This document shows positions 20,531-43,374 of a stretch of DNA of 43,374 nucleotides, piece after piece. How positions within the stretch are numbered: position 1 is the stretch's first letter; each line of letters begins with the position of its first letter. The translations under genes were made by a program, and so were the position numbers. This stretch comes from a virus: IMG/VR virus record IMGVR_UViG_3300048024_000772, positions 1-43,374 of that record; one strand, written 5' to 3'. Under the pieces are notes generated by a model. The model saw only the letters and a list, made by a program, of their open reading frames with translations. It was not told the origin of the DNA and did not search any database.

Positions 20531-20539
20531 GTATTTATT

Positions 20540-23952: not shown

Positions 23953-23979
23953 GCTTTGGTATTATTTTCTGATATTTTA

Positions 23980-24684
23980 TTAAATTTGATTATTTGCGAA
24001 TTTAAGGAATCTATTTATCATATCTTTATTGTAAGATGTCGTTTCTGCTTCAATATCCGAAAAGCTTTCGTACTGACCGAATAATAATTTATCTGTAACG
24101 AAAGATGTTCTTTGTTGTGTCATTTTTTTACCTATAATCGTGTCCATGCAACATCCGTTGTTTAAAAGTAAGAAATTTCTCATATTCTCGAAACTTGACG
24201 GGAATTGGTTGAATTGATTAAAAATACTATTTCTATTATTAAAACATACCGCTTGGGTAGCTAAAATGTTGCCTTTTAAATTAAATAGATTCGCGGAAGC
24301 TTTGTCAAGTGGAGATTGTACTGTGCCGCCTAAAAACATGATTTCATAATTTAATTCGTTCGCATCAGTTAGATACTTATTTATTAAGGATGCGTCTGTA
24401 AAAAAGGGTTCTGCATCGTCTTCGAAAATTAATATCTGATTAAAATTATTTTTTACTGCATGTAAGAATGGTTGCGTATAACTTAGTGAAATTGCTGTTC
24501 TGGCGTTTATGATTGACGTAAAATCAGTATTATTTTTTTGATTTGATGCGTCAAATGCGGTAATTCTTATTGTCCGCTCTACGTCTAGAATATTTTTATT
24601 TAGTTGCCAGAATTTATTTTTTCTATCAACCCGTTTATTTAAATTGATATAATAAACGCAATCAAATAAATCATTTAATTTCAT
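23980..24684 (-). CDS. GT25-type glycosyltransferase
   Basis: This is a 234-residue protein resembling the GT25 family (LPS glycosyltransferases such as LgtB/LpsA). It opens with VYYINLNKRVDRKNKFW and RITAFDAS, followed by ARTAISLSYTQPFLHAV and the metal-site motif ILIFEDDAEPF (E88-D89-D90). The region around LNNGCCMDTIIGKKM fits the acceptor-site half of a GT-A fold. It overlaps the upstream GT4-like gene by 4 bases. Relatives add galactose or glucose to lipooligosaccharide; which sugar is used here cannot be told. Confidence 0.74.
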   Translation of the reverse strand: MKLNDLFDCVYYINLNKRVDRKNKFWQLNKNILDVERTIRITAFDASNQKNNTDFTSIINARTAISLSYTQPFLHAVKNNFNQILIFEDDAEPFFTDASLINKYLTDANELNYEIMFLGGTVQSPLDKASANLFNLKGNILATQAVCFNNRNSIFNQFNQFPSSFENMRNFLLLNNGCCMDTIIGKKMTQQRTSFVTDKLLFGQYESFSDIEAETTSYNKDMINRFLKFANNQI

Positions 24685-25637: not shown

Positions 25638-26407
25638 TAAACTGATACTGAGTTATGGCCTTGATTTCTCCATTTTTTACCATCTTTGCACAGGATTGTG
25701 TTTATGTTTCCAAAAGAATTTGTTCCTGTTAACTGTTTGTATTTGCAGTTCTGCATATTTAAACATATAGTTATTACTGATTCAGGGACCTTGATCATGT
25801 ATTCTGGATACCCTTCATTCCAAAGAATGTTAATTGCATTAACGTAATAATCTAAACAATTCATATATTTTTTAATTTCATCAGGAGATCCTATCGCAAA
25901 TTGGTCATTGATTTGATTTGGTAGTGAGGCTTTGTCGTATATAAAACTAAAACTGAACTCTTTTTTTATTTCTTCTTCATGGTTGTAAATATTATCACTT
26001 TCAAATAAAGGTAATCTTATGAATTTATTTTTAATACAATCTTTTATTTCATGTTTTTTAATTTCCTCTAATATTTGAATATCTGGTCTTAACCTGATTA
26101 CTAGATCGTATTTAGTTTTTTGATTACAAAATAAATTATAAACAGCTTTCATATTAAAGAGCATTGGTAGTAAACCTTTGCTTGGCTTTACTGGGTGTTT
26201 GTGTAAATCAAATAGCTTTAGATCTTCATTTCCTGAAATTGTAAACTTTTTAGGTTTGTAGTAATTATAGAAATCCGGGTAATTCTCTGTGCTCCATGTA
26301 GCAAAAAAGATGTCAGGCTTTAGGGGTTTTATAATATTTTCAGTGATAGACTCAGAACATTCTGTCCAGTCTCCTAATTTTCCACTAAAAAGTAATGCTG
26401 TTTTCAT
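25637..26407 (-). CDS. GT-A-like glycosyltransferase of an uncharacterised phage/bacterial family
   Basis: This is a 256-residue protein. It starts with TALLFSGKLGDWTECSESI and NIIKPLKPDIFFATWS, and the middle holds KYDLVIRLRPDIQI, whose Arg-Pro-Asp resembles the metal-site region of WavE-like and related capsule glycosyltransferases. The end (VPESVITICLNMQNCKYKQL) is less typical. Similar proteins usually lie in polysaccharide clusters. It shares 1 base with the downstream GT4-like gene and 4 with the upstream GT9-like gene. Assignment as a glycosyltransferase rests on these patterns and on its position within an operon of such enzymes. Confidence 0.5.
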   Translation of the reverse strand: MKTALLFSGKLGDWTECSESITENIIKPLKPDIFFATWSTENYPDFYNYYKPKKFTISGNEDLKLFDLHKHPVKPSKGLLPMLFNMKAVYNLFCNQKTKYDLVIRLRPDIQILEEIKKHEIKDCIKNKFIRLPLFESDNIYNHEEEIKKEFSFSFIYDKASLPNQINDQFAIGSPDEIKKYMNCLDYYVNAINILWNEGYPEYMIKVPESVITICLNMQNCKYKQLTGTNSFGNINTILCKDGKKWRNQGHNSVSV

Positions 26408-27357
26408 TCTGTTATATATTCCGTTATGTCTCTCTGAGCAACTAAACTCTCAATGTCATCAAGTAAGAATGGGTAAAGTTTATAAGCTGGGTTTACGAGC
26501 ATATTTTTAATTATCTGACTTGCGCTACTAACGTCATAATGTAAAGGGAAAACATATCTTTCATTAAATAACCATCTGATTAAATAAGAATATTGAACGG
26601 TTCCATATTTTTGACAATATTTTGAGAAAGTAAATGTAGGTTTGCCAAAATGATACGGAATGTATCGTATTCCCGAATCAATACCAAACATAGCTGTGCA
26701 TTTACTTGCTAAATAAAATATTTGCCTTAGATCTGCGTGAATTAAATGTAATTTAGGATTTTTTGATCCAAAGAAATCTTCGTATTTATGCTTTGAATCG
26801 TTATCATAAAGAATTATTAAATTAAAATCTTTTGTTACGTCATTAATTAACCTCTTGATATACCAATCCTCCATATTTGAGTCTGCATCATCTCTTGCAT
26901 AAAGGTGCGCTAAAATAAATTTTTCAAAAGGCAACTCTATGTTTTGAGTTAAGCTGGTGGTAGGTCTTGGGAATACATTAAAATATTTAAACCAATCATA
27001 ATCGTGATTTAACCAATCTAGAGAATCGATATGTAAATCGTAGAACTTATCATAAGCTCCTTTCATTAATTTTATATCATTGGATCGCACATTTTTAATT
27101 GACCCCCTATAATCTTCTTCTGGGAAATTTGATGATTTTATTCGAAAATTTTTATATTTCTTTTTTTCTAAAACAAAAACATCATTAAAATGGTCTGGCC
27201 ATATTTCTCTAAGTATGTCTGACTGTATTGAGTTACCTTCTGTGTCTGACCATAAGTCTATTTTACATCCAGGGTGATATTCTTTAATCGCAGGTATAAA
27301 TCTATTAGCGGCGAAATGATCACCTAGACCCCCTTCCATTCTAACAGATATCTTCAT
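26404..27357 (-). CDS. GT9-like (heptosyltransferase-type) glycosyltransferase
   Basis: This is a 317-residue protein. The start KISVRMEGGLGDHFAANRF, with Gly-Gly-Leu-Gly-Asp, is characteristic of GT9 and related GT-B enzymes, followed by IKEYHPGCKIDLWSD. The second half (NLIILYDNDSKHKYEDFF; LRQIFYLASKCTAMFGIDSG, then RYIPYHFGKP) corresponds to the nucleotide-sugar site, where the family has a conserved Asp-Ser-Gly. Unlike the split enzyme at 16873-19925, both halves are here in one chain. It overlaps the winged-helix gene by 17 bases and the next gene by 4. A heptose or another sugar could be the substrate. Confidence 0.63.
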   Translation of the reverse strand: MKISVRMEGGLGDHFAANRFIPAIKEYHPGCKIDLWSDTEGNSIQSDILREIWPDHFNDVFVLEKKKYKNFRIKSSNFPEEDYRGSIKNVRSNDIKLMKGAYDKFYDLHIDSLDWLNHDYDWFKYFNVFPRPTTSLTQNIELPFEKFILAHLYARDDADSNMEDWYIKRLINDVTKDFNLIILYDNDSKHKYEDFFGSKNPKLHLIHADLRQIFYLASKCTAMFGIDSGIRYIPYHFGKPTFTFSKYCQKYGTVQYSYLIRWLFNERYVFPLHYDVSSASQIIKNMLVNPAYKLYPFLLDDIESLVAQRDITEYITE

Positions 27358-27671: not shown

Positions 27672-27700
27672 ATCTTAAACTAATTAACGACTTTTGTCAA
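27672..27700 (-). promoter_or_regulatory. Consensus sigma-70 promoter for the - strand operon, leaderless
   Basis: On the - strand, TTGACA (27700-27695), a 17-base spacer and TAAGAT (27677-27672) are followed by 7 bases and then the ATG at 27664. A normal start 7-8 bases after the -10 box falls on, or within one base of, the A of the ATG. No Shine-Dalgarno sequence can exist. Confidence 0.78.
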
Positions 27701-27802: not shown

Positions 27803-27831
27803 TTGACTTTTACTGAATTATCATCTATACT
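27803..27831 (+). promoter_or_regulatory. Consensus sigma-70 promoter, leaderless, for the + strand early operon
   Basis: TTGACT (27803-27808), a 17-base spacer and TATACT (27826-27831) are followed by TTGTTC and the ATG at 27838. The expected transcription start (+7) is the A of the ATG itself. This promoter would drive the dNMP kinase, sigma-like, SSB and GT4 genes. Confidence 0.82.
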
Positions 27832-28149: not shown

Positions 28150-28691
28150 ATATTATAGGAATATCAGGATTAGCGAGATCAGGAAAAGATACTTTATATT
28201 CTTTGTTGGCAGAAAAATTGAAAGACAAAGGGTTATTATCAACTAGAATAGCATTCGCAGATGAATTAAAAGAAGAATGTAATGATTTCTTATTAAAGAA
28301 CGTAGGAATATCAGCATTCACGGAAAAAAATTCCGAAAAGGAAATCATTAGGCCTTTTTTGGTTTGTTATGGATCAAAGGTAAGGAGAAGACTTAATGAA
28401 AACTGTTGGATAGAAAAAGTTTCCGACAGACTCAAACAGATAAATAAAGTAAATTACGTATTCATTACTGACGTAAGATACGAAAACGAAATAAATTGGG
28501 TTAAATCAAAACAAGGTAAAACCATTCATATATCAAGAGAAGGAAATATAGCTCCAAACGAAGAGGAGTTGAATAACAATCCCAAACTAATTAAAGCTTC
28601 TCAATATAAATATGAGTGGAAAAATTTCGAAGAAGTAGATAATCTATATATACAAAACAAAGTTAACCAAATATATAATGAACTTTTTTAA
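28146..28691 (+). CDS. Deoxynucleoside monophosphate kinase-like P-loop protein
   Basis: This is a 181-residue protein. The Walker A motif GLARSGKDT (Lys14) lies in the first strand-helix turn, followed by LSTRIAFADELKEE, then NYVFITDVRYENEIN, which gives the Asp-Val-Arg motif found in phage dNMP kinases (T4 gp1-like), and KTIHISREGN. Such enzymes make dNDPs from dNMPs for phage DNA synthesis. The length fits the smaller members of the family. The ATG overlaps the upstream gene by 4 bases and has GGAG just before it. It overlaps the sigma-like gene by 14 bases. General NMP kinase activity is the alternative. Confidence 0.78.
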   Translation: MNIIGISGLARSGKDTLYSLLAEKLKDKGLLSTRIAFADELKEECNDFLLKNVGISAFTEKNSEKEIIRPFLVCYGSKVRRRLNENCWIEKVSDRLKQINKVNYVFITDVRYENEINWVKSKQGKTIHISREGNIAPNEEELNNNPKLIKASQYKYEWKNFEEVDNLYIQNKVNQIYNELF

Positions 28692-29289
28692 TAATCACAC
28701 AGACCTAGAGCTTATTAATAATATCAAAAATAGGACTGATATTGAGGCTAGTTTAAATGAATTAGTAGAAAGACATAGCGGAATATATATTGATATGGTT
28801 AATGCTTACTCAACGAAGGATAATCCATTTATAGACAAAGAAGACTTAATCAACGATAAGGAGTATAAAATTTTCTCCGCAGCACTAAAGTATGATGAAA
28901 GCAAAGGTGCGAAATTTAGTACGTATCTAGGAAACGAAACTAAATGGAATTGCTTAAATACTTACAACAGAAACAAGAGGCGCCCAGTATTTCAATCAGA
29001 GTATATAGAGAACATGTCAGATCAAGAATCTAAGGAATCTAACGATATCGCCAATTCAATTAAAAAAGATATTTTCAATAAAGTTCTTAACCTCATAGGT
29101 TCCCACCCAGATAAAAGAGTCGAAAAAATATTTAACATGAGATACATAGAAGGAAATAAAAACAAAGTAATGCCTTGGAAAAATATAGGAGATTCATTAA
29201 ATCTGAGTATCCAAGGATGCATTAATATACATAACTCAGCAATAAAAGACATACAAAACGAACTGAAAGGAGAATTTAATTTTGAATAG
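28678..29289 (+). CDS. Sigma-70-family RNA polymerase sigma factor, phage-type
   Basis: This is a 203-residue protein. Residues ~55-105 resemble sigma region 2 (DKEYKIFSAALKYDESKGAK then FSTYLGNETKWNCLNTYNR), where KYDESKGAKFSTYL corresponds to the core-binding/-10 recognition helix. Residues ~150-195 (IFNMRYIEGNKNK, then WKNIGDSLNLSIQG, INIHNSAIKDI) look like region 4, a helix-turn-helix. Region 3 and the acidic region 1 are missing, as in ECF and phage sigma factors. It lies in the early operon, before SSB, and is a natural candidate to direct host polymerase to the GTGTAAWWT elements ahead of the fibre and glycosyltransferase genes. It overlaps its neighbours by 14 and 8 bases. Confidence 0.78.
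   Translation: MNFFNNHTDLELINNIKNRTDIEASLNELVERHSGIYIDMVNAYSTKDNPFIDKEDLINDKEYKIFSAALKYDESKGAKFSTYLGNETKWNCLNTYNRNKRRPVFQSEYIENMSDQESKESNDIANSIKKDIFNKVLNLIGSHPDKRVEKIFNMRYIEGNKNKVMPWKNIGDSLNLSIQGCINIHNSAIKDIQNELKGEFNFE
29266..29273 (+). promoter_or_regulatory. Strong ribosome-binding site deciding a TTG start
   Basis: AAAGGAGA lies 8 bases before the TTG at 29282. This makes TTG, rather than a later ATG, the start of the SSB gene. It is one of very few clear Shine-Dalgarno sequences in the window. Confidence 0.8.
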
Positions 29290-31070: not shown

Positions 31071-31079
31071 GTGTAATAT
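31071..31079 (+). promoter_or_regulatory. Candidate phage late promoter GTGTAATAT
   Basis: GTGTAATAT ends 6 bases before the ATG at 31086; reading TAATAT as a -10 box places the start on the ATG. It is one of four copies 14-15 bases before an ATG, all at structural or fibre-linked genes (the others are at 34807, 37784 and 43205). No Shine-Dalgarno sequence is present. Confidence 0.65.
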
Positions 31080-31085
31080 CTTCGT

Positions 31086-32780
31086 ATGCCTAACGAAGAT
31101 TATAAAAACAATCCGTTATACACAGATATAACGAACCTTGACTCCCTCTCACCTACCCCTACATTTTCATACAATTGGAATTCCGAGAGTGGAAGATGGG
31201 AGCCAGCAGGTCCAGTCAATATCGATGAAGTTAATATTGATATATCTGGCGACTTAAACATAGATTTAGGCCCAACAAATGATATATTAAATAGTATATC
31301 ATCTAAAACTGAAGGTATTCATAATTTAATTTCTTTAGATACAAATTATATATTATCAGGAATAACTTCAGGACTATCTAACATACATGAAGCTCAAATA
31401 GATAATAGTAAAGATGTAAATAATTTACTAGAATTAATTAATAAAAATTTATCTGGAATCCAAGTTGATGTATCTATAGATAGCGACATAGATACCCACA
31501 GGTTACTCTCTGGCATTTCAGGGGAATTATCTAGTTTAGATACCGAAGATTTAGAAACTCACAGGTTACTCTCTGGTATTTCAGGGGAATTATCTAGTTT
31601 AGATACCGAAGATTTAGAAACTCACAGGTTACTCTCTGGTATTTCAGGGGAATTATCTAGTTTAGATACCGAAGATTTAGAAGCTCACAGGTTACTCTCT
31701 GGTATTTCAGGAGAATTATCTTCGCTAGATATAAATATCGATACTGAAGAAACAAATAGATTGCTTTCTGGTATCTCAGGAGAACTTTCTGATCTAGAGG
31801 TAAGCCTAGATAGTGAAGAAACAAATAGATTACTCTCTGGGATCTCAGGAGAACTTTCTGATCTAGAGGTAAGCCTAGATAGTGAAGAAACAAATAGATT
31901 ACTCTCTGGTATCTCAGGGGAACTTTCTGATCTAGATGTAAACCTGGATAATAAAGAAACAAACAGAATACTTTCAGGAATATCTGGAGAATTTTCAAAC
32001 ATAGATATAGAAGATGAAGAAACCCATAGATTGCTTTCAGGAATATCTGGAGAATTTTCAAACATAGATATAGAAGATGAAGAAACTCATAGATTGCTTT
32101 CAGGAATATCTGGTAAATTATCTAAATTAGATCAAGCTCAGAAAAGAGAATTATACCAACCATGGAAACTAAGAACTAAAACTGTCTCCCAAAAAATAGA
32201 AGAAGATTTTATTCTAATGGAAAACATTCCAGATGATTTAAGATATGGTATAGTTTCAGGAGAGTGCTTCGGTCAAGATAAAAATTTAATGGATGACGTT
32301 TTTGGAAATTATTTTTCAAATGGAAGATTGAACAAGAGTATGCTCGAAACAGGTCATCCTAATTATTTTATTCATTCAGAATATACAGATCCAGATAGAT
32401 GCAGCGAATCCTATGCAACTTTCCATAGTGACACTTTATTTAGTCTTCGTCAAGAAAATAAATCTGCAAGTTTAATTAATTCTTATGAATTAGACGACTT
32501 TAATGATTTATATGAAAGAGGCTTAGTAGACCATGTAGTTATATATAATGAATCCCCTTATCCTATACAGTTCCATACTGCAGAAAGAAGAAAAAATAAC
32601 ACAGAACCAGTCTCACCGAAAACGGATGATCTAATATATCTAGACACAGACATGGCGGTCAAAATTGACAGTGATGAAGCTGGAAGAGTTTTTGTGAAAA
32701 GACCTCATACTATATCAGGTTATACAGTAAAATATTCAATAGTTTATAAAGAAACAGGGTTTTACGATAATTTTAAGTAA
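31086..32780 (+). CDS. Repeat-rich phage structural protein (fibre or appendage)
   Basis: This is a 564-residue protein. Residues ~1-130 are a low-complexity N-terminal region (NPLYTDITNLDSLSPTPTFS). Residues ~135-342 hold ten tandem repeats of 21-23 residues with the core HRLLSGISGELSSLD, which read as a regular hydrophobic strand/turn or helical stalk. The last ~210 residues form a distinct globular domain (ENIPDDLRYGIVSGECFGQ, DVFGNYFSNGRLNKSML, then HVVIYNESPYPIQFHTAERR) that I do not recognise. Its repeats differ in sequence but not in idea from those of the next gene, so the two proteins may pack in one fibre. A GTGTAATAT element precedes it, and the next gene follows after 2 bases. Head fibre and tail appendage are both possible. 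Confidence 0.7.
   Translation: MPNEDYKNNPLYTDITNLDSLSPTPTFSYNWNSESGRWEPAGPVNIDEVNIDISGDLNIDLGPTNDILNSISSKTEGIHNLISLDTNYILSGITSGLSNIHEAQIDNSKDVNNLLELINKNLSGIQVDVSIDSDIDTHRLLSGISGELSSLDTEDLETHRLLSGISGELSSLDTEDLETHRLLSGISGELSSLDTEDLEAHRLLSGISGELSSLDINIDTEETNRLLSGISGELSDLEVSLDSEETNRLLSGISGELSDLEVSLDSEETNRLLSGISGELSDLDVNLDNKETNRILSGISGEFSNIDIEDEETHRLLSGISGEFSNIDIEDEETHRLLSGISGKLSKLDQAQKRELYQPWKLRTKTVSQKIEEDFILMENIPDDLRYGIVSGECFGQDKNLMDDVFGNYFSNGRLNKSMLETGHPNYFIHSEYTDPDRCSESYATFHSDTLFSLRQENKSASLINSYELDDFNDLYERGLVDHVVIYNESPYPIQFHTAERRKNNTEPVSPKTDDLIYLDTDMAVKIDSDEAGRVFVKRPHTISGYTVKYSIVYKETGFYDNFK
31492..32110 (+). repeat. Tandem repeats of 63-69 bp in the fibre gene at 31086
   Basis: There are ten in-frame repeats. 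The first four have a period of 63-66 bp and are nearly identical in DNA (ACTCACAGGTTACTCTCTGG at each start). The next three have a 69-bp period (GAAGAAACAAATAGATT) and the last three are about 63 bp. Near-identity of adjacent copies points to recent expansion by slippage or recombination. Confidence 0.9.
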
Positions 32781-32782
32781 TA

Positions 32783-34798
32783 ATGGATTTTTTTGAAATA
32801 AAAAAGCCGGTAAGGAAAATTGGTTTAGATCAATATGTAATAGGACCAAACACTAATGATCCGCTAGTAGAAATAGATGGACATCGTATTGCTGTAGATG
32901 AAATTACAGTAAAAAAATTAAATGTAAATCTAGGATTATTCTCTGAACTATCTGGAGTAAGCTTAATTGGCGAATCAGGATTGATTCAGAATCTAGAGCT
33001 ATCTACAGGATTATTCTCTGAACTATCTGGATTAAACTTCATTACTGAATCAGGATTAATTCAGAATCTAGAGCTATCTACAGGATTATTCTCTGAACTA
33101 TCTGGAGTAAACTTTATTACTGAATCAGGATTGATTCAGAATCTAGAGCTATCTACAGGATTATTCTCTGAACTATCTGGAGTAAACTTTGTATCCAGTG
33201 CAGGAATATTTGATAATTTAAATTTAAACGGCTTTGATGTAGAAGAAAGGTTAGATGAATTAGAAGGTTCATTATCAAGCATAGACTTTAGTTCTGGTAT
33301 AGTTATATCTGGACACGTTACAGCGTCAAACGAAGCTGCTATATTTTGCAAAGCTTTTGCGTCTGGAGAGCAATATTTAAGTAATGCGAATCAACTTAAT
33401 ATTAATTTTACAGGGCAATTATCTGAAGGATCTTATGACTGGAGATCTTTAAGTGAAGATAACTCCAGAAACACATTTAACGTAGAAGAACAAGGCTATT
33501 ATGATATTGATTTTAGTTGGAAATATAACTCTGGGGAATATGTAGGAGATATTTTAAGCTCTAATAGCCTCGTATACAAAGTTAACAAATTAACAAATTT
33601 TCAAGAAATATTAGGAACCGATGTTAAATTCAAAACAGATGCGGCATTTATCGAAGAGTATAGCGGAGCATATTCTTCAGCATTAAATCCAGTAATTAAC
33701 ATTAAAAATGTATTCCTTACCCCTGAAGAAGAAATATACGCAGTAGCCAGTCATTATTCAGCTAATACAGGAAAATTATACAAAATATCTACAGAGGAAT
33801 TTGACACATACATAAATATAGAAAAAAAGAATTCTCCAGCAAGCGGAGTTTTTACTTTTGAGCAGTTACTTGACACTCCAGAAAGAATAGAAGATGGCGC
33901 AGGAAAATATCTTAGGGTATCCAAAGAAGGCACTTCAATAGAATACTCCGAAGTAGTAGAAGCTTCGGGAAGTATATTTTCAAAAGCATCAATATTAGAC
34001 GGTCAATTCATTAATAATCAATCAGGCACAATATTAAATTTTAATGGACAATTATCTTCGGGCTCAAAAAATTGGCTATACGAAGGACAGTATAATACTC
34101 TAAGAGCTAGCGATTCAGCATTCTATGATATAGATTTTGAATGGACTTATAAAGAAGACCAAAACTTAGGATCAATACTTAAATCTACCGCTAATATATA
34201 TAAGAAAAATATATCTACAAATCAAACAACTTATCTAGGTTCGGATATAAGATTTAAACAAGATAGTGAATTAGTCGAAGAGTATAATTCAGCATATTCA
34301 TCAATACTAAAACCTCAAGTTAATATCAAAAACGTTTTTTTAACTCACGACGATTACATCGTGGCAGAAATAGAACATTTTTCTACAGATACAGGACAAT
34401 TCTCTATATCATCTAATCCAAATGATACATACTTAAATTTAGAAAGGAAAGTTAATACTGCCGGAGCTTCAAACTTTTTAGATTTACTTGACACCCCCAC
34501 TTCATTCATTAGTGGTAGTGGTAAATTTTTAAAAGTTTCCGACGACGAAAAATCTTTAATTTTAACCGACGAAATAAAAGCTAGTGATATATCCGGCTCC
34601 ATAACTGGATCAGTAGATAGATACGACTTAAAAGAAGCTTTTGAAATAGATGAAAATGGAGATATTATACCAAGTAACGAAAAAGAAATATCTGATACGA
34701 TGTGGATATTAAAGAATGAAACTGATATAGAATTAAGAGCTAATATCTGGAGATATAATACCGGACCGGAAGCATTTACAGATGATATATCATTTTAG
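32783..34798 (+). CDS. Phage fibre protein with duplicated C1q-like beta domain
   Basis: This is a 671-residue protein. After a short N-terminal part come four 25-residue repeats (LELSTGLFSELSGVNF, then ITESGLIQN) at residues ~50-136. Two long homologous domains follow, at ~181-385 and ~393-600. Each has a beta jelly-roll pattern (FNGQLSSGSKNW; GYYDIDFSWKY; NIKNVFLTPEE) like C1q/TNF-type phage fibre heads. Each ends in FEQLLDTPERI or FLDLLDTPTSF, with GAGKYLRVSKEG or GSGKFLKVSDDE. The Leu-x-Asp-Thr-Pro then Gly-x-Gly-Lys-x-Leu motif is common in phage fibres. The C-terminus ends ETDIELRANIWRY. It is probably a trimer, and an internal duplication is clear. Two bases separate it from the upstream gene. 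Confidence 0.75.
   Translation: MDFFEIKKPVRKIGLDQYVIGPNTNDPLVEIDGHRIAVDEITVKKLNVNLGLFSELSGVSLIGESGLIQNLELSTGLFSELSGLNFITESGLIQNLELSTGLFSELSGVNFITESGLIQNLELSTGLFSELSGVNFVSSAGIFDNLNLNGFDVEERLDELEGSLSSIDFSSGIVISGHVTASNEAAIFCKAFASGEQYLSNANQLNINFTGQLSEGSYDWRSLSEDNSRNTFNVEEQGYYDIDFSWKYNSGEYVGDILSSNSLVYKVNKLTNFQEILGTDVKFKTDAAFIEEYSGAYSSALNPVINIKNVFLTPEEEIYAVASHYSANTGKLYKISTEEFDTYINIEKKNSPASGVFTFEQLLDTPERIEDGAGKYLRVSKEGTSIEYSEVVEASGSIFSKASILDGQFINNQSGTILNFNGQLSSGSKNWLYEGQYNTLRASDSAFYDIDFEWTYKEDQNLGSILKSTANIYKKNISTNQTTYLGSDIRFKQDSELVEEYNSAYSSILKPQVNIKNVFLTHDDYIVAEIEHFSTDTGQFSISSNPNDTYLNLERKVNTAGASNFLDLLDTPTSFISGSGKFLKVSDDEKSLILTDEIKASDISGSITGSVDRYDLKEAFEIDENGDIIPSNEKEISDTMWILKNETDIELRANIWRYNTGPEAFTDDISF
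32932..33190 (+). repeat. Tandem 75-bp repeats in the fibre gene at 32783
   Basis: AGGATTATTCTCTGAACTAT recurs at 32932, 33007, 33082 and 33157, exactly 75 bp (25 codons) apart. Copies are nearly identical, differing at only a few bases, and encode the Gly-Leu-Phe-Ser-Glu-Leu-Ser-Gly repeat. Confidence 0.92.
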
Positions 34799-34806
34799 TA
34801 TAATTT

Positions 34807-34815
34807 GTGTAATAT
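34807..34815 (+). promoter_or_regulatory. Candidate phage late promoter GTGTAATAT
   Basis: GTGTAATAT is followed by AAGTA and the ATG at 34821, 14 bases from the first G. It lies in the 22-base gap after the fibre gene at 32783 and is identical to the copy at 31071. Confidence 0.65.
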
Positions 34816-34820
34816 AAGTA

Positions 34821-37781
34821 ATGGCTACAAGAAATTTAGTTCCAAGAAATAGCGGAGAAGGTGGAGTAGGTCGATTAGGTAAGCCTTGGGCTACAGGATA
34901 TTTCGACAATCTTTTTATTGGGGATTTAGAGTTCTCAATGGATCAAAATTTAACCACGCAAGATTCAGTAGAATTTTTAAGTGGTAATTTTATCAGCGGT
35001 TTAACCCTAGATGGAGTAGATGTGGCTAGCTTAGGAACATCTGTCTCTCAAGTACAATCTGGAGCAGCGGAATTTGTTTTCTTTTCAGATGTACTTGATA
35101 ATATAGGCGTTACAAATAAAACTTATTATAACACACCAGACCCAAATTTGTATTTATCTTCTGTAGAAGTTACTACTGCAGAAGATTTAAGGGTTGAAAT
35201 GCAATGGGACGGACCCAATGATGACTATATGGGTTCCGCTTACATTGAAGGACAACAAATACCTTTTGGAAACATACAGCAGCTAGGAGATAATACAAGA
35301 AGATTTATTGGATTTATAGATAACTTAAATATAGAAGGCAAGACTGAATTAAGCGGAGAAGCTAATGGTAGAACAATCATAATACCCCTATCCGAAGCAG
35401 GAGGAGGTCCAGAAGCTGTAGATATAAGAATTGACCCAATAACTGCCGCAACGCCTAAACCAGGAGAAAACATAGGGTCAACTCATTTAAAACAAGGAGA
35501 TTCCTTAAATGTATACGTAGACTTTGACACAAATGATGTTAGTTCTATTAAAGTTTTAGGCTCAGGTTTAGCTCAACAAATAAATTTCGCTAATTACAGT
35601 TTAGTAGAATCAAACGGCATATTTACGGCCACAATACCAATAACAGTTTCAAATGTATCCAATGGTTCACACGGAGTAGCAGTACAAGCGGTAAACGCCT
35701 TTGGCTCAACTGGAGATGCAATATCATCTGAAGTTTTTGTTCACGGTAGTGGAACTAGAGATGTAGATCAAATTTATCCATCAATATCTGCAAGTAATCC
35801 AACTTCATATAATGGTAGAACAGATGGTTTAAGAGAAGGAGAATCCACAACTTTTAATAATAGTATATCTAATTGGAATAGTTCATCTGATTTAGTTTCA
35901 TATACAACAAGTAATGATATTTCAATCACCGATCCTGCAGTTTTTCAATCGGTAAAAACAGTAGATTACGTACAAGGAATATACAATAATTCAAACAATA
36001 TAACAATTTCTGCTTCTAAAACTTCAAACGGAGCAACAGACACAGATAGTATAAAAGTTAAAATTGCAAACGGGCCGCAAATAACTGGAGCCTCCTTACA
36101 GTCAATAGCTTCCTCAGCTACTTCTCCGCATTCAATTGGTACTTCTGAAATTAAAGCTGGAGACACTGTGCAATCCGAAATCTTTATAGATGGTAAAGGT
36201 ACATCGATAAACAATATTTCTCTTTCAGTTAGAAGTGAAGGTGTATCTAACGGATCACAAACTTCTTACTCCTCAAGCTACTCGAAGACAACTCTTTCAG
36301 ACGGAAGCTATAAATTTACAGTTCCTATTAATGTATACGGTTCAATAGGATCTTCGACCAGAGACGGAAGTCAACCTGCAGCATTTATTGCAAGAAATAA
36401 TTTTGGAACACTGAGCGATAAGTTCACAACATCAGATACTGCCACATTAAATAACGGATCAGTACCGTATTTAAACTTGTTAGGAATAGATTACCCGATT
36501 AATCAAAGTGCATTAAAAAATTCTGAATCTGCCACTATCAATTTCGAAAAAAATAACGTAGACACTCTTTATATAGATGATAACAATTTAGGTGGATCTG
36601 GTGAATTAAACTTCTCTACCAATAGTCAATTTGATAATGAATTAGAATATTATGGAAATTGGGTAGTTAGGCAGTTATTAAATCAACCTGGAGGATATGT
36701 AAGGGTTACTATGACTGGGCCTTATGCAGGAGCTTATACACATCTTAGGTTGAACATCATAAATTACGGAGGTACTGCATCTATTTCTACCTCTGGTACT
36801 ACACTTATAGTTAATTATCCAAAGCGCCAAAATGGATGGCCTTATAATGGGCCAATTATAAATTTTATTAACAGTCAGCCAAACTTATCTGCAGTGGCTT
36901 CATCTGGCGTAAACTTAAATCATAGCGGGTTACAACCTACTTCGGGTAGTACGCAAACCGTAAGCATTAATACTACACCCCAGCTTAGTTCAAACGGATA
37001 CGCTTTAGTTAAAAAAGAGGTTTTTAGATTAGGCGGTTCATATAATATATCTGTTAATAATTTCATCTTATCAGGAACGAAAACATCAAACGGTATAACT
37101 ATCGAACGTCAAGATATAGTAAATATAGCAAACACACCACTGACTTTATCAATAAATAATTTAGCTTCAAAATTATCAAGCTCACCATCAGGAATATCAG
37201 ATCAATTTTATCTTCAAAGTTCGCAGCTAATGCTGAATAGCCCAACTCTAAGTCTTGATTCATCTCAAAGCAATCAGCCTGTTCTTGTCATCAATAGTTC
37301 GGGAACAGGAGAGACGAGTAATTCTTATACAATTACAGTTTCAGATTCTAATACAAAAGGAACTTTCTCATGGAGTATTACCGCAACTAATTTAGCAGGA
37401 ATTACAACAAATTCAATTTCAACTAACCCAAATTATACGCTTGCAGGATTTTCCTCTAGAACAATTAATGCCTCCCCAAATAGCTTAGGGGCAGGTTTAG
37501 CTGACATAGGAACCACTGTCTCAAATACTAGCAGCGTAACTTTTGAAAATGTCTCTGAAGGAGGTACGGCTCCAAACGGAGGAACAATATATACCTATCA
37601 ATCTTACTCTGATGGCATACAGCTGGACAATTCTTACGATGTAAATAATAAATTTACAATATGTAACTCAAGCGGACTCACAGATTCAGATGGGAGCTTT
37701 GTTTTTAATTTAGACAAACTAAACAGATCAGCAAATACCTCAACATCTAATCCAGCAAGTTTTGTAATTTCGGAAAATTAA
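34821..37781 (+). CDS. Phage fibre protein with Ig-like domains
   Basis: This is a 986-residue protein. The N-terminus (LVPRNSGEGGVGRLGKPWAT, then GDLEFSMDQNLTTQDSVEFL) is an attachment-type module I know from marine phage fibre and appendage proteins. From ~85 onward it is Ser/Thr/Asn-rich, with several immunoglobulin- or fibronectin-like beta domains (IRIDPITAATPKPGENIG; VSNGSHGVAVQAVNAFGSTG; TIPITVSN). Ser, Thr and Asn are very abundant and exposed-looking, which makes this protein a natural glycosylation target. The four glycosyltransferase genes that follow (37799-42243) begin 17 bases later. The C-terminus (NTSTSNPASFVISEN) has no obvious chaperone. Confidence 0.72.
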   Translation: MATRNLVPRNSGEGGVGRLGKPWATGYFDNLFIGDLEFSMDQNLTTQDSVEFLSGNFISGLTLDGVDVASLGTSVSQVQSGAAEFVFFSDVLDNIGVTNKTYYNTPDPNLYLSSVEVTTAEDLRVEMQWDGPNDDYMGSAYIEGQQIPFGNIQQLGDNTRRFIGFIDNLNIEGKTELSGEANGRTIIIPLSEAGGGPEAVDIRIDPITAATPKPGENIGSTHLKQGDSLNVYVDFDTNDVSSIKVLGSGLAQQINFANYSLVESNGIFTATIPITVSNVSNGSHGVAVQAVNAFGSTGDAISSEVFVHGSGTRDVDQIYPSISASNPTSYNGRTDGLREGESTTFNNSISNWNSSSDLVSYTTSNDISITDPAVFQSVKTVDYVQGIYNNSNNITISASKTSNGATDTDSIKVKIANGPQITGASLQSIASSATSPHSIGTSEIKAGDTVQSEIFIDGKGTSINNISLSVRSEGVSNGSQTSYSSSYSKTTLSDGSYKFTVPINVYGSIGSSTRDGSQPAAFIARNNFGTLSDKFTTSDTATLNNGSVPYLNLLGIDYPINQSALKNSESATINFEKNNVDTLYIDDNNLGGSGELNFSTNSQFDNELEYYGNWVVRQLLNQPGGYVRVTMTGPYAGAYTHLRLNIINYGGTASISTSGTTLIVNYPKRQNGWPYNGPIINFINSQPNLSAVASSGVNLNHSGLQPTSGSTQTVSINTTPQLSSNGYALVKKEVFRLGGSYNISVNNFILSGTKTSNGITIERQDIVNIANTPLTLSINNLASKLSSSPSGISDQFYLQSSQLMLNSPTLSLDSSQSNQPVLVINSSGTGETSNSYTITVSDSNTKGTFSWSITATNLAGITTNSISTNPNYTLAGFSSRTINASPNSLGAGLADIGTTVSNTSSVTFENVSEGGTAPNGGTIYTYQSYSDGIQLDNSYDVNNKFTICNSSGLTDSDGSFVFNLDKLNRSANTSTSNPASFVISEN

Positions 37782-37783
37782 TT

Positions 37784-37792
37784 GTGTAAATT
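37784..37792 (+). promoter_or_regulatory. Candidate phage late promoter GTGTAAATT
   Basis: GTGTAAATT, then AAGTCA, then the ATG at 37799 (15 bases from the first G). It differs from the consensus by two bases. It would drive the four-gene glycosyltransferase block. Confidence 0.6.
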
Positions 37793-37798
37793 AAGTCA

Positions 37799-38878
37799 AT
37801 GAAAGTTTTATTGACAGCTAATTTTGAAAACGGGCTTTTTAGTAATGGTTTGCAGCAAAATATTGTATTTTTATCTGAATTATTAATTAATTTAGGATTC
37901 AATCCTATTATTGCAGTAAATCATGACATAGATAAATGTGTTGATCCTCCATGTGATATTATAATTATTGAAAAAAATGAAATCTTAGATTATTGTGATG
38001 ATTTAGCTTTTGTACTAAACACTGCCTGGCTAATAGAATCTTCCACGATTTCATTAATAAGGCAAAAAAATAAAAGTTTTAAAAATATTCATATAGTTTA
38101 TGGCAACGGAATGCTAGCCGATATAGAAAGATGTAGTTGGCAGGATCACTTAGCAATAGATAATGAAACCGCTGACGAAGTTTGGATATCTCCCCATTAT
38201 AAATTTTCCTACAATTACTATAAAACGTATTATCATACGGAAAAAATATTCGAATTACCTTATATCTGGAGCCCTAAATATGTAGATATTCATGAAAAAA
38301 TCTGGAATAAAATAAACAAAACATGCTACTATAAGGCAGGAGAAGAGAAAAATATTGGTATACTCGAACCTAATTTAAACATAACTAAGCACTGCCTCCC
38401 TTCAATTATGATAGCGGAGGAATATTTTTCAAATATAAGTAAAGAAGATTTCAACAAAATATCTGTTTATTGCGCATCAAAGTTTTTAGATAAAAAATAC
38501 TTCAAATCTTTAATGTGGAAACTCAACATTACAAAAGAAAATAAAATTGAATTCAAGCCGAGAATAAAAGTGACCAAAATATTCACAGGCTTATCCAATA
38601 TATTTATCTCCAACCAACTACTAAATGCCCTGAATTATACTTATCTCGAAGCGTTACATTTCAATTTTCCATTAGTTCATAATTCCAATATTATTAAATC
38701 AGCAGGATATTATTACCCTGATTACGACACTAAACTTGGAAGTAGAGCTTTAGAACTAGCCCTAAACTACCACGATCAAAACCTGGAATCTTACAAAGAA
38801 AACTCTAGAAAAACAATTTACAAATATTCACCCAAAAATCCACTTGTTATAGAAAAATATAAAAAATTATTGTCATGA
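37799..38878 (+). CDS. DUF2827-type glycosyltransferase-like protein (first copy)
   Basis: This is a 359-residue protein matching the DUF2827 family, which is related to GT-B glycosyltransferases. It has LLTANFENGLFSNGLQQNIV at the N-terminus, SPHYKFSYNYYKTYYH, VPY-like FELPYIWSP and NIGILEPNLNITKHCLPSIM (hallmark of the family) in the middle, and ALNYTYLEALHFNFPLVHNS with GYYYPDYDTKLG near the C-terminus, where the family has the donor-site Glu. Asn and Gln in NGLQQN are conserved. It overlaps its paralogue by 4 bases. The substrate is unknown; family members lie in polysaccharide clusters. Confidence 0.75.
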   Translation: MKVLLTANFENGLFSNGLQQNIVFLSELLINLGFNPIIAVNHDIDKCVDPPCDIIIIEKNEILDYCDDLAFVLNTAWLIESSTISLIRQKNKSFKNIHIVYGNGMLADIERCSWQDHLAIDNETADEVWISPHYKFSYNYYKTYYHTEKIFELPYIWSPKYVDIHEKIWNKINKTCYYKAGEEKNIGILEPNLNITKHCLPSIMIAEEYFSNISKEDFNKISVYCASKFLDKKYFKSLMWKLNITKENKIEFKPRIKVTKIFTGLSNIFISNQLLNALNYTYLEALHFNFPLVHNSNIIKSAGYYYPDYDTKLGSRALELALNYHDQNLESYKENSRKTIYKYSPKNPLVIEKYKKLLS

Positions 38879-39975
38879 AAATAGGAATAACCCTCGATAT
38901 GTCGGTCGCCTTCTGGGCGAACGGGATGCAACAAAATATAGTCTTCTTGTACGAAATGATACAAAGATGCGGCCACGAATGTTTCTACATTACATATAAA
39001 GAGCCATTACATAAATTAAAAAAAGATCACAAAGGCATGCTATTAGATGACTTATTATCTGATGACAACGAAAGCTTAGATCTAATAATAGTAGCTGGAT
39101 TTGATTTACTGCCAGAGATGTACGATAAATTTAAATCTAGAAATAAAAATTTCAATACAATTTTGATTCATTTTGGCAATAAATTAATGGACGACATACA
39201 TCACTCCTTATTAGATAAAAGCGCAAAGCTTCCATTAGAAAAGCCAAAATATCTAGATCAAATCTGGATATCCCCGCAACATGAATTTTCAAAAAACTAT
39301 ATTAAGACATATTATAATTTTGAAAAAGTTATAGTCATACCATTTATATGGGATTCATTTTTCGTAGAAGATAAGATACAAGAATTAAAATACAAAGGCT
39401 TGGATCCTAATTATACACAAGCCAGAAGCCATAAAATATGTATCTTTGAACCTAATATTTCATATATTAAAAATTGTATAGTGCCAATTAATATATGCGA
39501 AAACCTCTATCACAAGGATTCGGAAATAATGAAATCTGTAAATTTATTCTGTTGTCAACGAATTAAGTTTAATCCATTTTTTGAAAAACTAATGAATAGA
39601 CTAAGTGTAGTTAAAAAGAAAGACTTTTGCTACTTTAATAAAAGATGGGGTTCTCTCAACGCTTTAAGTAAATTTGGAAGCACTATAGTTAGCCATCAAA
39701 TAAAAAATGAACTAAACTACAGTTATCTCGAGGCTTTATTTTTAAACCTGCCCTTAATACATAATTCGCCAACTTTACAAGATGTAGGTTATTATTATCC
39801 AGACTGCGATGTAGATTTTGGCGCAAACCAATTAAAGAACGCTATACTTAATCATTCAAAAACACTAGATCAAAGCAGGGAAGATAATAGAAATTTCCTA
39901 AATAAATATAGTCCATATAATACAAACAACATTAATGTATATAAGAAAATAATAGATGATACTCAAAACAAATAA
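38875..39975 (+). CDS. DUF2827-type glycosyltransferase-like protein (second copy)
   Basis: This 366-residue paralogue of the upstream protein shares the same landmarks: FWANGMQQNIVFLYEMIQ, WISPQHEFSKNYIKTYYN, ICIFEPNISYIKNC, ELNYSYLEALFLNLPLIHNS and GYYYPDCDVDFG. Divergence between the copies is large, so the duplication is not recent; the two may act as a pair on alternating linkages. It overlaps the neighbours by 4 and 20 bases. Confidence 0.75.
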   Translation: MKIGITLDMSVAFWANGMQQNIVFLYEMIQRCGHECFYITYKEPLHKLKKDHKGMLLDDLLSDDNESLDLIIVAGFDLLPEMYDKFKSRNKNFNTILIHFGNKLMDDIHHSLLDKSAKLPLEKPKYLDQIWISPQHEFSKNYIKTYYNFEKVIVIPFIWDSFFVEDKIQELKYKGLDPNYTQARSHKICIFEPNISYIKNCIVPINICENLYHKDSEIMKSVNLFCCQRIKFNPFFEKLMNRLSVVKKKDFCYFNKRWGSLNALSKFGSTIVSHQIKNELNYSYLEALFLNLPLIHNSPTLQDVGYYYPDCDVDFGANQLKNAILNHSKTLDQSREDNRNFLNKYSPYNTNNINVYKKIIDDTQNK

Positions 39976-41461
39976 TATTAAATTTTATTATCTAACAAAA
40001 ACAGAAGATAGTGAAAACTCTAAACATGTAGAATCTATATTAAAATATTATCAATGCAAAAAAGTACTACCTTTTGAAATAGGTATATCAAAAGAAAAAT
40101 CTGGAAGTATAGGTCATGCAAGAATGATTGAGGCAGGGTTAAGGGATCAAGATAATGACAAACCATTTCAACCCTTTGTGATATTAGAGGACGATATTTC
40201 TTTTTTCAGGGAAATGCCAGAAGAGATAGATATTCCGTATGATGCTGATTTGTTTTATCTAGGTTTGTCCCAGCTTGCAATGAATAACGGTAAAGCTGTT
40301 GATGATATCTCTGCAAAAGAGGTAGATGAAAATACTTATCAAATATTTAATATGTTAAGCGGTCACTCAATAATGATTTGCAGCGCTCTCGGCGCAGCGG
40401 CTTATCAGAAAGCTATGATCGATGGTTTTTATCAAGATAAAATTTGGGATGTTTTTGCTGCGGAAATGCAGACAAATTATAATGTATACGCTCTTAAGAA
40501 ACCTATTTTTCTTCAGGATTTAAAGTTCGGAGGTAGGGAAGCTGCAACTAATTTTGAACTAGATAATAGCAAGTATCATAAAAAAGTATATTCTGATCCG
40601 ATTAATTTACCCAAAAAGAAATCTAGTTTTTTTAATAATTCTTCTATTATGAGAATAAGTTCTCAATCAAAAAATCTAGATGATTTACTTGAACCTCTAC
40701 CATCTATACCTAAAAAAATTCATATTTCATGGAAAGATAAATCTATCTTAGAAAGTTCAAATCAATTAGCTATAAATGGAATACAGAATTTAATTAAGTT
40801 AAACCCTAACTGGGAGCTTATCATCTCAGATGATAACGAAGTAGAAACTTATTTAAAGGAGAACTTATCAAGCGTAGACTACAATTTAATTAAAGACGCA
40901 CCGATAGTATCAAAAGTTGACACATGGCGTCTATTAAAAATAGTTAACGAAGGTGGCCTATATACAGATATAGATAGACATACAAATAAAGATCTAGACT
41001 CAATTATACAAAAAAACGCAAAATGCGTTTTACCCCTGCACTCCAATCATGGAAAAATCATAGACTTTTCTCAAGATATTATGATTAGCGCCCCAAATAA
41101 TCCACTACATAAATCAGCATTAGATTTAATGTTAAGGAGAAGAAGGTCAGGTTGGCAAGATATATTAACATTAGCGCCAATTACATATTTTCACGCTTTA
41201 ACTAAAATGATTTATGGACACAGTCTAGAAAGACATCCAAGCGAAGAAGTTTTAGATAAAATAATTGAAAAGATAAATGAATCAAAGTATATTCAAATTT
41301 TCATAGAAACTCCGCCCGAAGAGACTTTTCTATTTAAATACGATAAAAATACATTCAATATAGCTAATGGTTTAGGTAAAGAAGCTATGTACGATGAAAG
41401 TGGAGTTGAACATTGGGGGGTAAGAAACCCTATAGATAAAAATAAAATGAAATTCAAATGA
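39956..41461 (+). CDS. Two-domain glycosyltransferase: GT25-like + GT32
   Basis: This is a 501-residue fusion. Residues ~1-225 resemble a GT25-type GT-A domain with the metal motif VILEDDISFF (E78-D79-D80), YLGLSQLAM and GHSIMICSALGAAAY. Residues ~248-485 are a GT32 domain: IPKKIHISWKDKSI, KVDTWRLLKIVNEGGLYTD followed by Ile-Asp-Arg (D338/D340). The second domain is clearly paralogous to the - strand gene at 23194-23952: DFSQDIMIS(A/S)P, then R-R-x-G, then LAPITYFHA. The start at 39956 overlaps the upstream gene by 20 bases and leaves the GT25 motif intact. Two consecutive transfers by one polypeptide are inferred. Confidence 0.82.
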   Translation: MILKTNNIKFYYLTKTEDSENSKHVESILKYYQCKKVLPFEIGISKEKSGSIGHARMIEAGLRDQDNDKPFQPFVILEDDISFFREMPEEIDIPYDADLFYLGLSQLAMNNGKAVDDISAKEVDENTYQIFNMLSGHSIMICSALGAAAYQKAMIDGFYQDKIWDVFAAEMQTNYNVYALKKPIFLQDLKFGGREAATNFELDNSKYHKKVYSDPINLPKKKSSFFNNSSIMRISSQSKNLDDLLEPLPSIPKKIHISWKDKSILESSNQLAINGIQNLIKLNPNWELIISDDNEVETYLKENLSSVDYNLIKDAPIVSKVDTWRLLKIVNEGGLYTDIDRHTNKDLDSIIQKNAKCVLPLHSNHGKIIDFSQDIMISAPNNPLHKSALDLMLRRRRSGWQDILTLAPITYFHALTKMIYGHSLERHPSEEVLDKIIEKINESKYIQIFIETPPEETFLFKYDKNTFNIANGLGKEAMYDESGVEHWGVRNPIDKNKMKFK

Positions 41462-42243
41462 ATAAAAAACAACAAGAATTAATAGATCTCAAAAATCAAT
41501 GGTTAAGTTTTTTCAATAATGATAGATTTGGAAAACACAGAAAGCTTTTTGATTGGGTTAAATACATAAGCTCGCAAATACCTGTGATTGAAGAACCTAA
41601 AGATAAATTCAATTGTTTTAATCCATTTAAGAAGATTGCAATCGTCAGCCTGTATACGAAAGAGATTTCTGAATTCGCTATTTACTCAGAAAAAAGTATT
41701 AAAGAATACTGCGAAAAGCAGGGTTACAGCTTTTACGTCTACAGAGAAAATTTAGATAAAAACGGAAGTCCGAATTGGTCAAAATCCCAAGCGTTACTTA
41801 ATCATATTGATGATCACGATTATATTGTATGGATGGATTCAGACACGTTAATTTTTAATCCAGAAAAAAAACTTGAATCAATTATAGAAAAAGCTCCGAA
41901 AAAATTCATACTTGCAACAAAAGATATTGGCGATCATTGCATGCTAAATAGCGGGGTATTATTCTTTAAATCTCATCAATATACAAAAAACATAATAAAA
42001 AAATGGCGAGATTTCGATGGAGATAAATCTTCATTGTACGCCAGCGGAGGAGATCAAGAAATATTATGCGAGATATTAAAAAAGAGTGATGGCTTTGGTT
42101 TTAATAGAAAAATATTTAAAATGAAAGAATTTAATACTGACCCAAGGTTAGTAAATAATGACACATTTATATTACATTTTATGGCTTATCCTTATGAATT
42201 AAAGAAGATATTTATGAGTTACTGGAATCACCTTGGATGCTAG
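41458..42243 (+). CDS. GT34-like (GMA12/MNN10-type) glycosyltransferase
   Basis: This is a 261-residue protein. It shows IAIVSLYTKEISEFAIYSE, then EKQGYSFYVYRENLD, PNWSKSQALLNH and the DxD motif YIVWMDSDTLIFNP (D127/D129), followed by MLNSGVLFFKS and SGGDQEILCEIL. This order is that of the galactosyl/mannosyltransferase GMA12/MNN10 family (GT34), known from fungi and plants and with bacterial and phage members. It overlaps the preceding gene by 4 bases and ends the four-gene block. The donor is probably a UDP- or GDP-sugar. Confidence 0.75.
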   Translation: MNKKQQELIDLKNQWLSFFNNDRFGKHRKLFDWVKYISSQIPVIEEPKDKFNCFNPFKKIAIVSLYTKEISEFAIYSEKSIKEYCEKQGYSFYVYRENLDKNGSPNWSKSQALLNHIDDHDYIVWMDSDTLIFNPEKKLESIIEKAPKKFILATKDIGDHCMLNSGVLFFKSHQYTKNIIKKWRDFDGDKSSLYASGGDQEILCEILKKSDGFGFNRKIFKMKEFNTDPRLVNNDTFILHFMAYPYELKKIFMSYWNHLGC

Positions 42244-42277
42244 TATTTATCTGGATTTATTAAAAAATAAACTTCCC

Positions 42278-42303
42278 AAAACTATAGTTTTAAGGTATAT
42301 ATT
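42278..42303 (+). promoter_or_regulatory. Palindrome AAAACTATAGTTTT and -10-like TATATT before the repeat protein gene
   Basis: A perfect 14-base palindrome, AAAACTATAGTTTT (42278-42291), precedes TATATT (42298-42303), which ends 5 bases before the ATG at 42309. There is no -35 box, and the GTGTAA element is absent. TTAAGGTATA (42290-42299) also occurs at 2573-2582 just before the I-J gene, so the two may share a signal. It may be a dedicated site for a strongly expressed gene. Confidence 0.45.
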
Positions 42304-42308
42304 ACTGT

Positions 42309-43148
42309 ATGGCAAAAATATTCCGTACTGAATCATTAAATCTTGGAGGTAATCTCCTCCTTGAAGCGAGCTCCGAAAACGCTTTTGAAATTAAAAGCGC
42401 AAGCGGTAGCACATTAATGTCTCGTCAAACTATTGAAAATGATATCTCTAGTTTACACGCTCAAAGAGTAGCGGACGAAGGAAACACTGATAGCGATATC
42501 TCTAGCCTTGCAGCTATATCTGCAGGAAGCACAGGAGATTTAGAGAGCAGTATTTCCAGCCTTCAAGCTCAACGCGACGCTGACGAAGGAACTACTGATA
42601 GTGACGTTTCTAGCCTTGCTGGTGATATCGCAACAAACAAGGGAGACCTTGAGAGCGACGTTTCCAGCCTTCAAGTTCAGCGCGTAGCTGACGAAGCAGC
42701 TACTGATAGCGACGTTTCCAGTCTTGCTGGTGATATCTCAACTAACAAGGGAGACCTTGAGAGCGACGTTTCCAGTCTTGCAGCTCTTAATAGCGCAGGT
42801 ACAGGAGACCTTGAGAGTGACGTTTCTAGCTTACAAGCTCAACGCGACGCTGATGAAGCAACTACTGATAGTGATATCTCTAGCCTCGCAGCTATTATCG
42901 CAACAAATGATGTAGTCGCAGTTAGCACAAGTGTGGGTAACGGTGTTGACAATTCCGGCTCAATTAGTTTTGGTCGCACATTTGCATCAACCCCAATTGT
43001 TGTAGCTCAATTAAAAAGCTCTGATGCAAACGATCCAATCATCGCATGCATGGTTTCCTCAGTTAGCGCAAGCGCTGCTACTGTAACATTTGCAGATAAC
43101 ACACCTTCTGCAAATTACACAGTAGAGTTAATTGCTTCTATTGGGTAA
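42309..43148 (+). CDS. Repeat-rich phage structural protein with C-terminal beta domain
   Basis: This is a 279-residue protein. The N-terminal part (MAKIFRTESLNLGGNLLLEA) is followed by repeats of about 16-25 residues over ~44-197 with the core DVSSLQAQRDADEATTDSD, rich in Asp, Ser and Ala; these look like a coiled-coil or stalk region. Residues ~200-279 (SGSISFGRTFASTPIVVAQL, then IIACMVSSVSASAATVTFAD) are a compact beta domain like those at tips of phage fibres (H-type-lectin-like). Codon use is more G/C-rich than in its neighbours, suggesting high expression or a separate origin. It is followed by a strong terminator. It may be an abundant fibre, fibritin-like or decoration protein. Confidence 0.65.
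   Translation: MAKIFRTESLNLGGNLLLEASSENAFEIKSASGSTLMSRQTIENDISSLHAQRVADEGNTDSDISSLAAISAGSTGDLESSISSLQAQRDADEGTTDSDVSSLAGDIATNKGDLESDVSSLQVQRVADEAATDSDVSSLAGDISTNKGDLESDVSSLAALNSAGTGDLESDVSSLQAQRDADEATTDSDISSLAAIIATNDVVAVSTSVGNGVDNSGSISFGRTFASTPIVVAQLKSSDANDPIIACMVSSVSASAATVTFADNTPSANYTVELIASIG
42439..42900 (+). repeat. Asp-Ser-Ser-Leu protein repeats in the gene at 42309
   Basis: About nine copies of a Ser-Ser-Leu-centred repeat run in tandem. In DNA, GAGAGCGACGTTTCCAG and GAGACCTTGAGAG recur many times, so copies are close in sequence. Alternate copies read (D/E)-Ser-Asp-(V/I)-Ser-Ser-Leu-Ala and (D/E)-Ser-Asp-Val-Ser-Ser-Leu-Gln-Ala-Gln-Arg. Confidence 0.85.
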
Positions 43149-43178
43149 AACCTAACGAGAAAGATATTCTTTATCTTT

Positions 43179-43204
43179 GGCGACCCCTTGGGGTCGCCTT
43201 TTTT
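43179..43204 (+). terminator. Strong rho-independent terminator
   Basis: GGCGACCC-CTTG-GGGTCGCC (43179-43198) forms an 8-bp GC-rich stem with a 4-base loop, followed by six T. It is the strongest terminator in the window and ends the late run after the repeat protein at 42309. Ten bases downstream of the loop the next GTGTAA element starts, so read-through is cut off before the next promoter. Confidence 0.93.
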
Positions 43205-43213
43205 GTGTAAAAT
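43205..43213 (+). promoter_or_regulatory. Candidate phage late promoter GTGTAAAAT
   Basis: GTGTAAAAT, then AATAT, then the ATG at 43219 (14 bases from the first G). It begins directly at the end of the terminator's T run, as expected for a new transcription unit. This copy is the best evidence that the element is a promoter. Confidence 0.7.
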
Positions 43214-43218
43214 AATAT

Positions 43219-43374
43219 ATGAATAGAAAAGATCTGTTTGATGATTTATTCTCAGAAAGAGAAAAACACCCACTAGGTAAACATGAGCCCGATAATAAAA
43301 AATATATAAAAGAAAATTTACCTGTCAAATATTCTGCCCCAGAAGTTCAAAAAAGATTAAAGAAAGTTTTTAAC
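43219..43374 (+). CDS. Start of an unidentified gene (3' end cut by window)
   Basis: The open frame runs from the ATG to the window edge, 52 codons: MNRKDLFDDLFSEREKHPLG, then KHEPDNKKYIKENLPVKY. It is highly charged and helical in look, with no recognised domain in the visible part. The ATG sits 14 bases after a GTGTAAAAT element and 15 bases after the terminator's T run, so it is the first gene of a new late unit. I do not recognise it; a structural or packaging gene would fit the location. Confidence 0.65.
   Translation, partial: MNRKDLFDDLFSEREKHPLGKHEPDNKKYIKENLPVKYSAPEVQKRLKKVFN

Follow-up and report, generated by a model that had tools for sequence, protein, structure and literature searches.

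A GTGTA element as a probable phage-specific promoter of leaderless virion-gene mRNAs in an essentially uncultured phage group

The window analysed here spans an entire IMG/VR phage record (43,374 bases) and contains a lambda-type tail cluster, sugar-transfer genes, a dNMP kinase gene and an SSB gene, and four of its genes are preceded at nearly the same distance by a GTGTAAWWT pattern, which raises the question of whether this element is a promoter of the virus and, if so, which protein reads it. The four copies, all on the plus strand, are GTGTAATAT at 31071–31079 (15 nt before the ATG at 31086), GTGTAATAT again at 34807–34815 (14 nt before the ATG at 34821), GTGTAAATT at 37784–37792 (15 nt before the ATG at 37799) and GTGTAAAAT at 43205–43213 (14 nt before the ATG at 43219), in agreement with an earlier note on this DNA. 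The genes behind them encode a repetitive protein of 564 aa with no function given (31086–32780), a protein of 986 aa whose C-terminal part matches a phage 'tail sheath' PHROG (34821–37781), a DUF2827 protein that opens a run of sugar-transfer genes (37799–38878) and a product cut by the contig end (43219–43374), which has 226 aa and no assigned function in the 122 kb relative G001. Neither a Shine-Dalgarno sequence at the four sites nor a -35 hexamer at sigma70 spacing from the ATG was found, as that note had also held, and the 43205 copy follows the strongest terminator directly, starting at the T-run end of the best-scoring terminator-like stem, an intrinsic terminator with an 8-pair stem at 43179–43198 (+).

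Some further features of the window were observed around these sites. A sigma70-like TTTACA-N18-TATAAT (11/12) at 34775–34804 ends just upstream of the 34807 element, and its -10 is not conserved, with TATAAT being TACAAT in G001. The gene at 32783–34798 contains tandem repeats of about 75 bp, also present at 12100–12577 of L023 (from the third contig, G002), and blastn of the window against G002 returned many shifted repeat copies, so that the copy number in this gene probably differs. Sugar-transfer and sugar-nucleotide genes occupy two blocks, 16050–27357 on the minus strand and 37799–42243, unusually many for a phage, with heptosyltransferase-like, WavE and HAD/nucleotidyltransferase fusion genes and two DUF2827 genes in tandem.

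The scan against shuffled sequence that the earlier note had proposed gave a divided answer within the window. The number of GTGTAAWWT matches is not significant (five found against 2.68 expected, with 14 of 100 shuffles reaching five), and the raw count was therefore rejected as evidence, but the position of the matches is far from random, with four of the five lying at -14/-15 of 33 starts (P ~2e-12). The fifth match, at 43112, is on the minus strand and runs antisense to the gene that contains it.

The same element was maintained in the relatives. G001, whose version of the 986-aa protein is 80% identical, carries all four 9-mers before the orthologous genes with 36 of 36 bases identical, while elsewhere in the gaps 77 of 93 aligned bases agree, and has further element sites before other genes; the 31071 site is identical in G002 as well. 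At the terminator 43179–43198 the stem letters are changed in G001, with the hairpin and T-run kept. A search of IMG/VR with the G001 terminase found at least 597 related loci, 80 of which were taken for analysis, while a comparison with 50,697 phage records returned distant relatives only, with identity below 60%, indicating that this large group of aquatic bacterial viruses is essentially uncultured. The element was present in every related contig checked.

A homology-blind pentamer scan of 82 contigs (1.22 Mb) placed GTGTA as the top positional pentamer, with 102 occurrences at -14 and 69 at -15 against 4.4 expected at each, among 1262 ATG starts called as simple longest-ATG frames, some of which can be misplaced. 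Counted by protein family, GTGTA occupies -14/-15 in 34 families, as against at most four for unrelated letter permutations; the permutation AGTGT reaches 12 families, which are the GTGTA site displaced by one base. The extended set comprises 666 protein families, and 55 of them have GTGTA at this spacing, compared with 0.62 per offset elsewhere (binomial p ~1e-70). Enrichment beyond the window, on which the earlier note had staked its proposal, was thus borne out in the relatives. The family-level count also refutes the reading that the sites are chance or the shared ancestry of a few sites; the unremarkable 9-mer count in the window speaks for that reading, and 55 unrelated families at one spacing leave it a negligible probability. 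Across 14 whole contigs, GTGTAW-N8/9-ATG occurs 115 times, against 20 for the reversed pattern. A count on the 80 sigma A loci as a held-out test was dropped, since homologous coding letters dominate it.

The base requirements of the element are strict. When sigma70-type starts were excluded, GTGTA was found in 53 families and 14 of its 15 one-base variants in zero to six, with the remaining variant, GTATA, in 12 families against a control of 3.5, an excess that probably comes from shifted GTGTATA. Fourteen bases downstream of GTGTA, GTG is raised (20 against about 5), as is ATG, and TTG is not. The logo of the 55 families has no -35 motif, every column between -45 and -7 (counted from the element) staying at or below 0.15 bit, and Bacteroidetes-type promoters (TAnnTTTG) gave no sign of enrichment. 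Judging from these alignments and counts, the element has GTGTA as its core and an A/T-rich stretch behind it; its base specificity is near-absolute, and it stands in an A/T-rich gap with no -35 box. The proposal of a GTG joined to a TAAWWT -10 box has to be revised in this respect, as the conserved core is GTGTA and then A/T, with the T at the end of the hexamer in only 49%.

These phages also contain a second promoter class, TTGACA-N17-TAnnnT, whose -35 box lies 35–36 bases before the ATG in 85 families, so placed that a normal start would fall at or beside the start codon. The two classes are nearly exclusive, with GTGTA in 65 families, TTGAC in 85 and only one family in both. Genes preceded by the sigma70 class include those for DnaB, the RNR small subunit, a PHP-domain protein and UvdE, together with the operon of dNMP kinase, sigma-like protein B and SSB, and are early-type. 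In the window, TTGACT-N17-TATACT at 27803–27831 (+) heads this last operon, with the ATG at 27838 six nt past the -10, and a divergent TTGACA-N17-TAAGAT at 27672–27700 (-) has its ATG at 27664, both in leaderless placement. A family with an M64-type peptidase match (L057:3863-5365:+; in G001, L016:9131-10489:+) carries a sigma70-type leaderless promoter in six of six members. G001 also encodes a Clp-type ATP-dependent protease ATPase of 820 aa (L017:2513-4975:-; PHROG 4871), whose ATG has GTGTAATAAC immediately in front of it, at less than the usual distance.

The existence of this class bears on whether the host's own sigma reads the GTGTA sites as extended -10 promoters (TG-TAnnnT) of the same geometry, a reading favoured by the resemblance of GTG plus TAWWWT to an extended -10 and by the A/T-rich downstream bases. 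The final T of TAnnnT, which a sigma70 extended -10 should conserve, is present in 87% of the TTGACA class and only 49% of the GTGTA class of the same phages, both G positions of the element (first and third) are near-absolute, and a separate, full sigma70 class exists beside it. In four MAGs the pattern was only weakly above control (77/67, 62/44, 136/89 and 46/19), these being MAGs with related contigs and maybe not hosts. We regard reading by the host sigma as improbable. The tRNAs gave no indication of the host, and host assignment through co-binned MAGs was rejected, as Halobacteriovorax, an unnamed bacterium, Flavobacteriaceae and Verrucomicrobiales were returned with no agreement.

The distribution of GTGTA over operons suggests a role in transcription. 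Families at operon heads carry it in 42 of 63, 28 of 34, 24 of 25 and 27 of 28 members, whereas operon-internal families carry it in none (0/78, 0/66, 0/62, 0/52, 0/49 and 0/43). This argues against a translation signal, such as an unusual ribosome-binding GUGUA, for which one could adduce the constant spacing from the start codon and the missing Shine-Dalgarno, as operon-internal genes need initiation too. The near-exclusion between the element and sigma70 promoters and the copy that begins in a terminator T-run tell against the same reading, and so do the copies at larger distance, which come with Shine-Dalgarno letters. In nine contigs, a Shine-Dalgarno 4-mer was found in none of 96 genes with a near motif, compared with 167 of 1053; by family, Shine-Dalgarno-like letters occur in 104 of 609 without GTGTA, in six of 67 with near GTGTA and in 14 of 35 with distal GTGTA (-22 to -40), the distal excess having p values of 0.002 and 0.0004. 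The element thus appears to set the 5′ end, with the mode of translation following from that, and a translation signal is very improbable. The window provides one distal copy, GTGTAATAA at 2562–2570 (+), 24 nt before the ATG at 2586 of the central tail fibre gene J, whose leader has a Shine-Dalgarno-like AAGG; from its letters it is predicted to be a leadered version of the element, and the G001 ortholog of J also has GTGTAATAT upstream.

At -14/-15 the sites have the arrangement of leaderless promoters, namely a -10-type element directly before ATG or GTG without a Shine-Dalgarno sequence, and we consider it highly likely, from comparative sequence evidence, that GTGTA is a promoter of leaderless mRNAs. 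The class covers operons with terminase and sigma A, a tail-sheath-like gene, a family of 661 aa with a faint portal match (E 0.03) and genes without assigned function, which are the majority, and it is very probable that these viruses use the element as a promoter of their own for virion-type genes. A capsid candidate of 380 aa had no usable PDB or PHROG match, and its structure model, with pLDDT 36, was unusable as well. The earlier proposal of a phage-specific promoter without a -35 box that yields leaderless mRNAs is therefore supported by the comparison of sequences, with the starts placed by prediction; its designation as 'late' fits the gene content, from which the timing would follow.

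Two sigma-like proteins, A and B, are encoded by G001 and were considered as readers. Sigma A, of 262 aa, lies in the terminase operon (L016:12926-13714:+) and is aligned with 16 homologues in alignment A1; it consists of a region 2, a conserved four-cysteine insert and a region-4-like end, the region 4 being judged by eye in the alignment. Most members have a Sigma70_r2 match above the cut-off, and the fold comparison with ECF sigmas gave a best E of 3.8e-3, of modest significance, so that the modelled likeness is suggestive. The four cysteines between regions 2 and 4 probably form a zinc site. IMG/VR contains at least 326 loci related to sigma A, and each of the 12 contigs (of 14) in which the terminase region is present also encodes it. 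Sigma-like protein B, of 203 aa (28678–29289, +), is encoded in the early-type operon of the window, with a PHROG sigma factor match of 1e-6 and a weak Sigma70_r2 match, and was found in only five of the 14 contigs, which makes A the better candidate. Stronger Sigma70_r2 matches, distinct from both A and B, were observed at G007 23256–23441 (E 1.9e-12) and G009 60254–60454 (E 3.3e-11).

That B reads the element, with A in another role, draws on the early-type promoter of its operon, by which B would be present at the right time, and on its neighbourhood to dNMP kinase, as the phiEco32 sigma gp36 is near gp34. The motif, however, is in all contigs, and three contigs of 125.7, 116 and 81 kb without B, which may be incomplete, contain it 16, 9 and 9 times against 3, 3 and 1 in the control. 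We judge this assignment unlikely and take reading by sigma A to be reasonably probable, so that the sigma-like protein in the window, which had been put forward as the reader, gives way to the one beside the terminase, off the window. Two points complicate the case for sigma A: a region-4-like helix-turn-helix is retained though no -35 motif is conserved, and within 2 kb upstream of its gene there is no sigma70-type start, with a GTGTA promoter about 1–1.9 kb upstream, meaning that first expression would need read-through or another promoter.

Among known systems, the nearest in kind are the middle/late promoters of phiEco32 read by the sigma phi32_gp36 (tAATGTAtA, no -35, start 6–8 bp downstream; PMC8948821), which lie upstream of late genes, with host sigma70 serving the early genes (PMC8948821; PMC4331800). 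Both are single elements with a TGTA core and no -35, and the distance from element to ATG here equals the 6–8 bp of phiEco32. The differences are that a G is needed before TGTA here (ATGTA at -14/-15 in 2 families against 3.1 in the control) and that in phiEco32 TGTA precedes genes 13, 26, 40 and 58 by 39–65 nt, ahead of leaders that contain Shine-Dalgarno-like letters, as opposed to the leaderless placement here. No alignable similarity to phiEco32 gp36 was detected for sigma A or B; they may still have a distant common origin in sigma region 2. The T4 late promoters, which the earlier note had named as similar yet different in sequence, consist of a TATA box of 8 bp that gp55 reads (PMC2988020). 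They share the single -10-region element, its place roughly one helical turn ahead of the start, the missing -35 and the A/T-rich downstream bases, and differ in the box (TATAAATA in T4, GTGTAWW here) and in the use of gp33 and the gp45 clamp, with no gp55-like protein among the PDB or PHROG results of general family scans. The comparison with T4 stands, with phiEco32 being the nearer system.

The late promoters of phage 7-11 (GTAAtg-16-aCTA, sigma gp47; PMC8948821) are alike in serving late genes through a phage-encoded sigma with region 4, but are bipartite with a -35 element that is lacking here. In phiKZ and AR9, short phage-specific late elements (TATG; AACA-N6-TA/G) are likewise present, but these are read by phage multisubunit polymerases and AR9 leaders are 26–491 nt long (PMC5312081). 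By analogy, GTGTA would work like the phiEco32 and T4 systems, with neither sequence nor sigma homology making it a member of them.

In the mechanism that we propose, early genes would be read first from host sigma70 promoters that are leaderless too. RNA polymerase with the phage ECF-like sigma A would then open the DNA at GTGTA and start about 7 nt downstream of the element, on the start codon itself or no more than one or two bases from it, so that virion, packaging and related genes would be read into leaderless mRNAs. Taken as a whole, a phage-specific single-element GTGTA promoter with sigma A as reader and leaderless virion-gene mRNAs is, in our assessment, a likely explanation. The broader picture, of a widespread uncultured phage group that uses leaderless mRNAs for much of its programme, with a host sigma70 early class, a strict GTGTA virion class and a previously undescribed four-cysteine, probably zinc-binding, sigma family as the reader, is one towards which we lean on balance.

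If so, the element allows transcription to be mapped from sequence in a phage group that has no close relative among the phage records searched but hundreds of members in public metagenomes, where terminase has at least 597 matches and sigma A at least 326. Two promoter classes of this group alike seem to give leaderless starts as a rule, and the minimal, strongly specific promoter offers a case for asking how recognition of five bases by sigma region 2 can work with no contact at -35. With the GTGTA pattern, one can also call the heads of operons and the start codons of genes in uncultured relatives.
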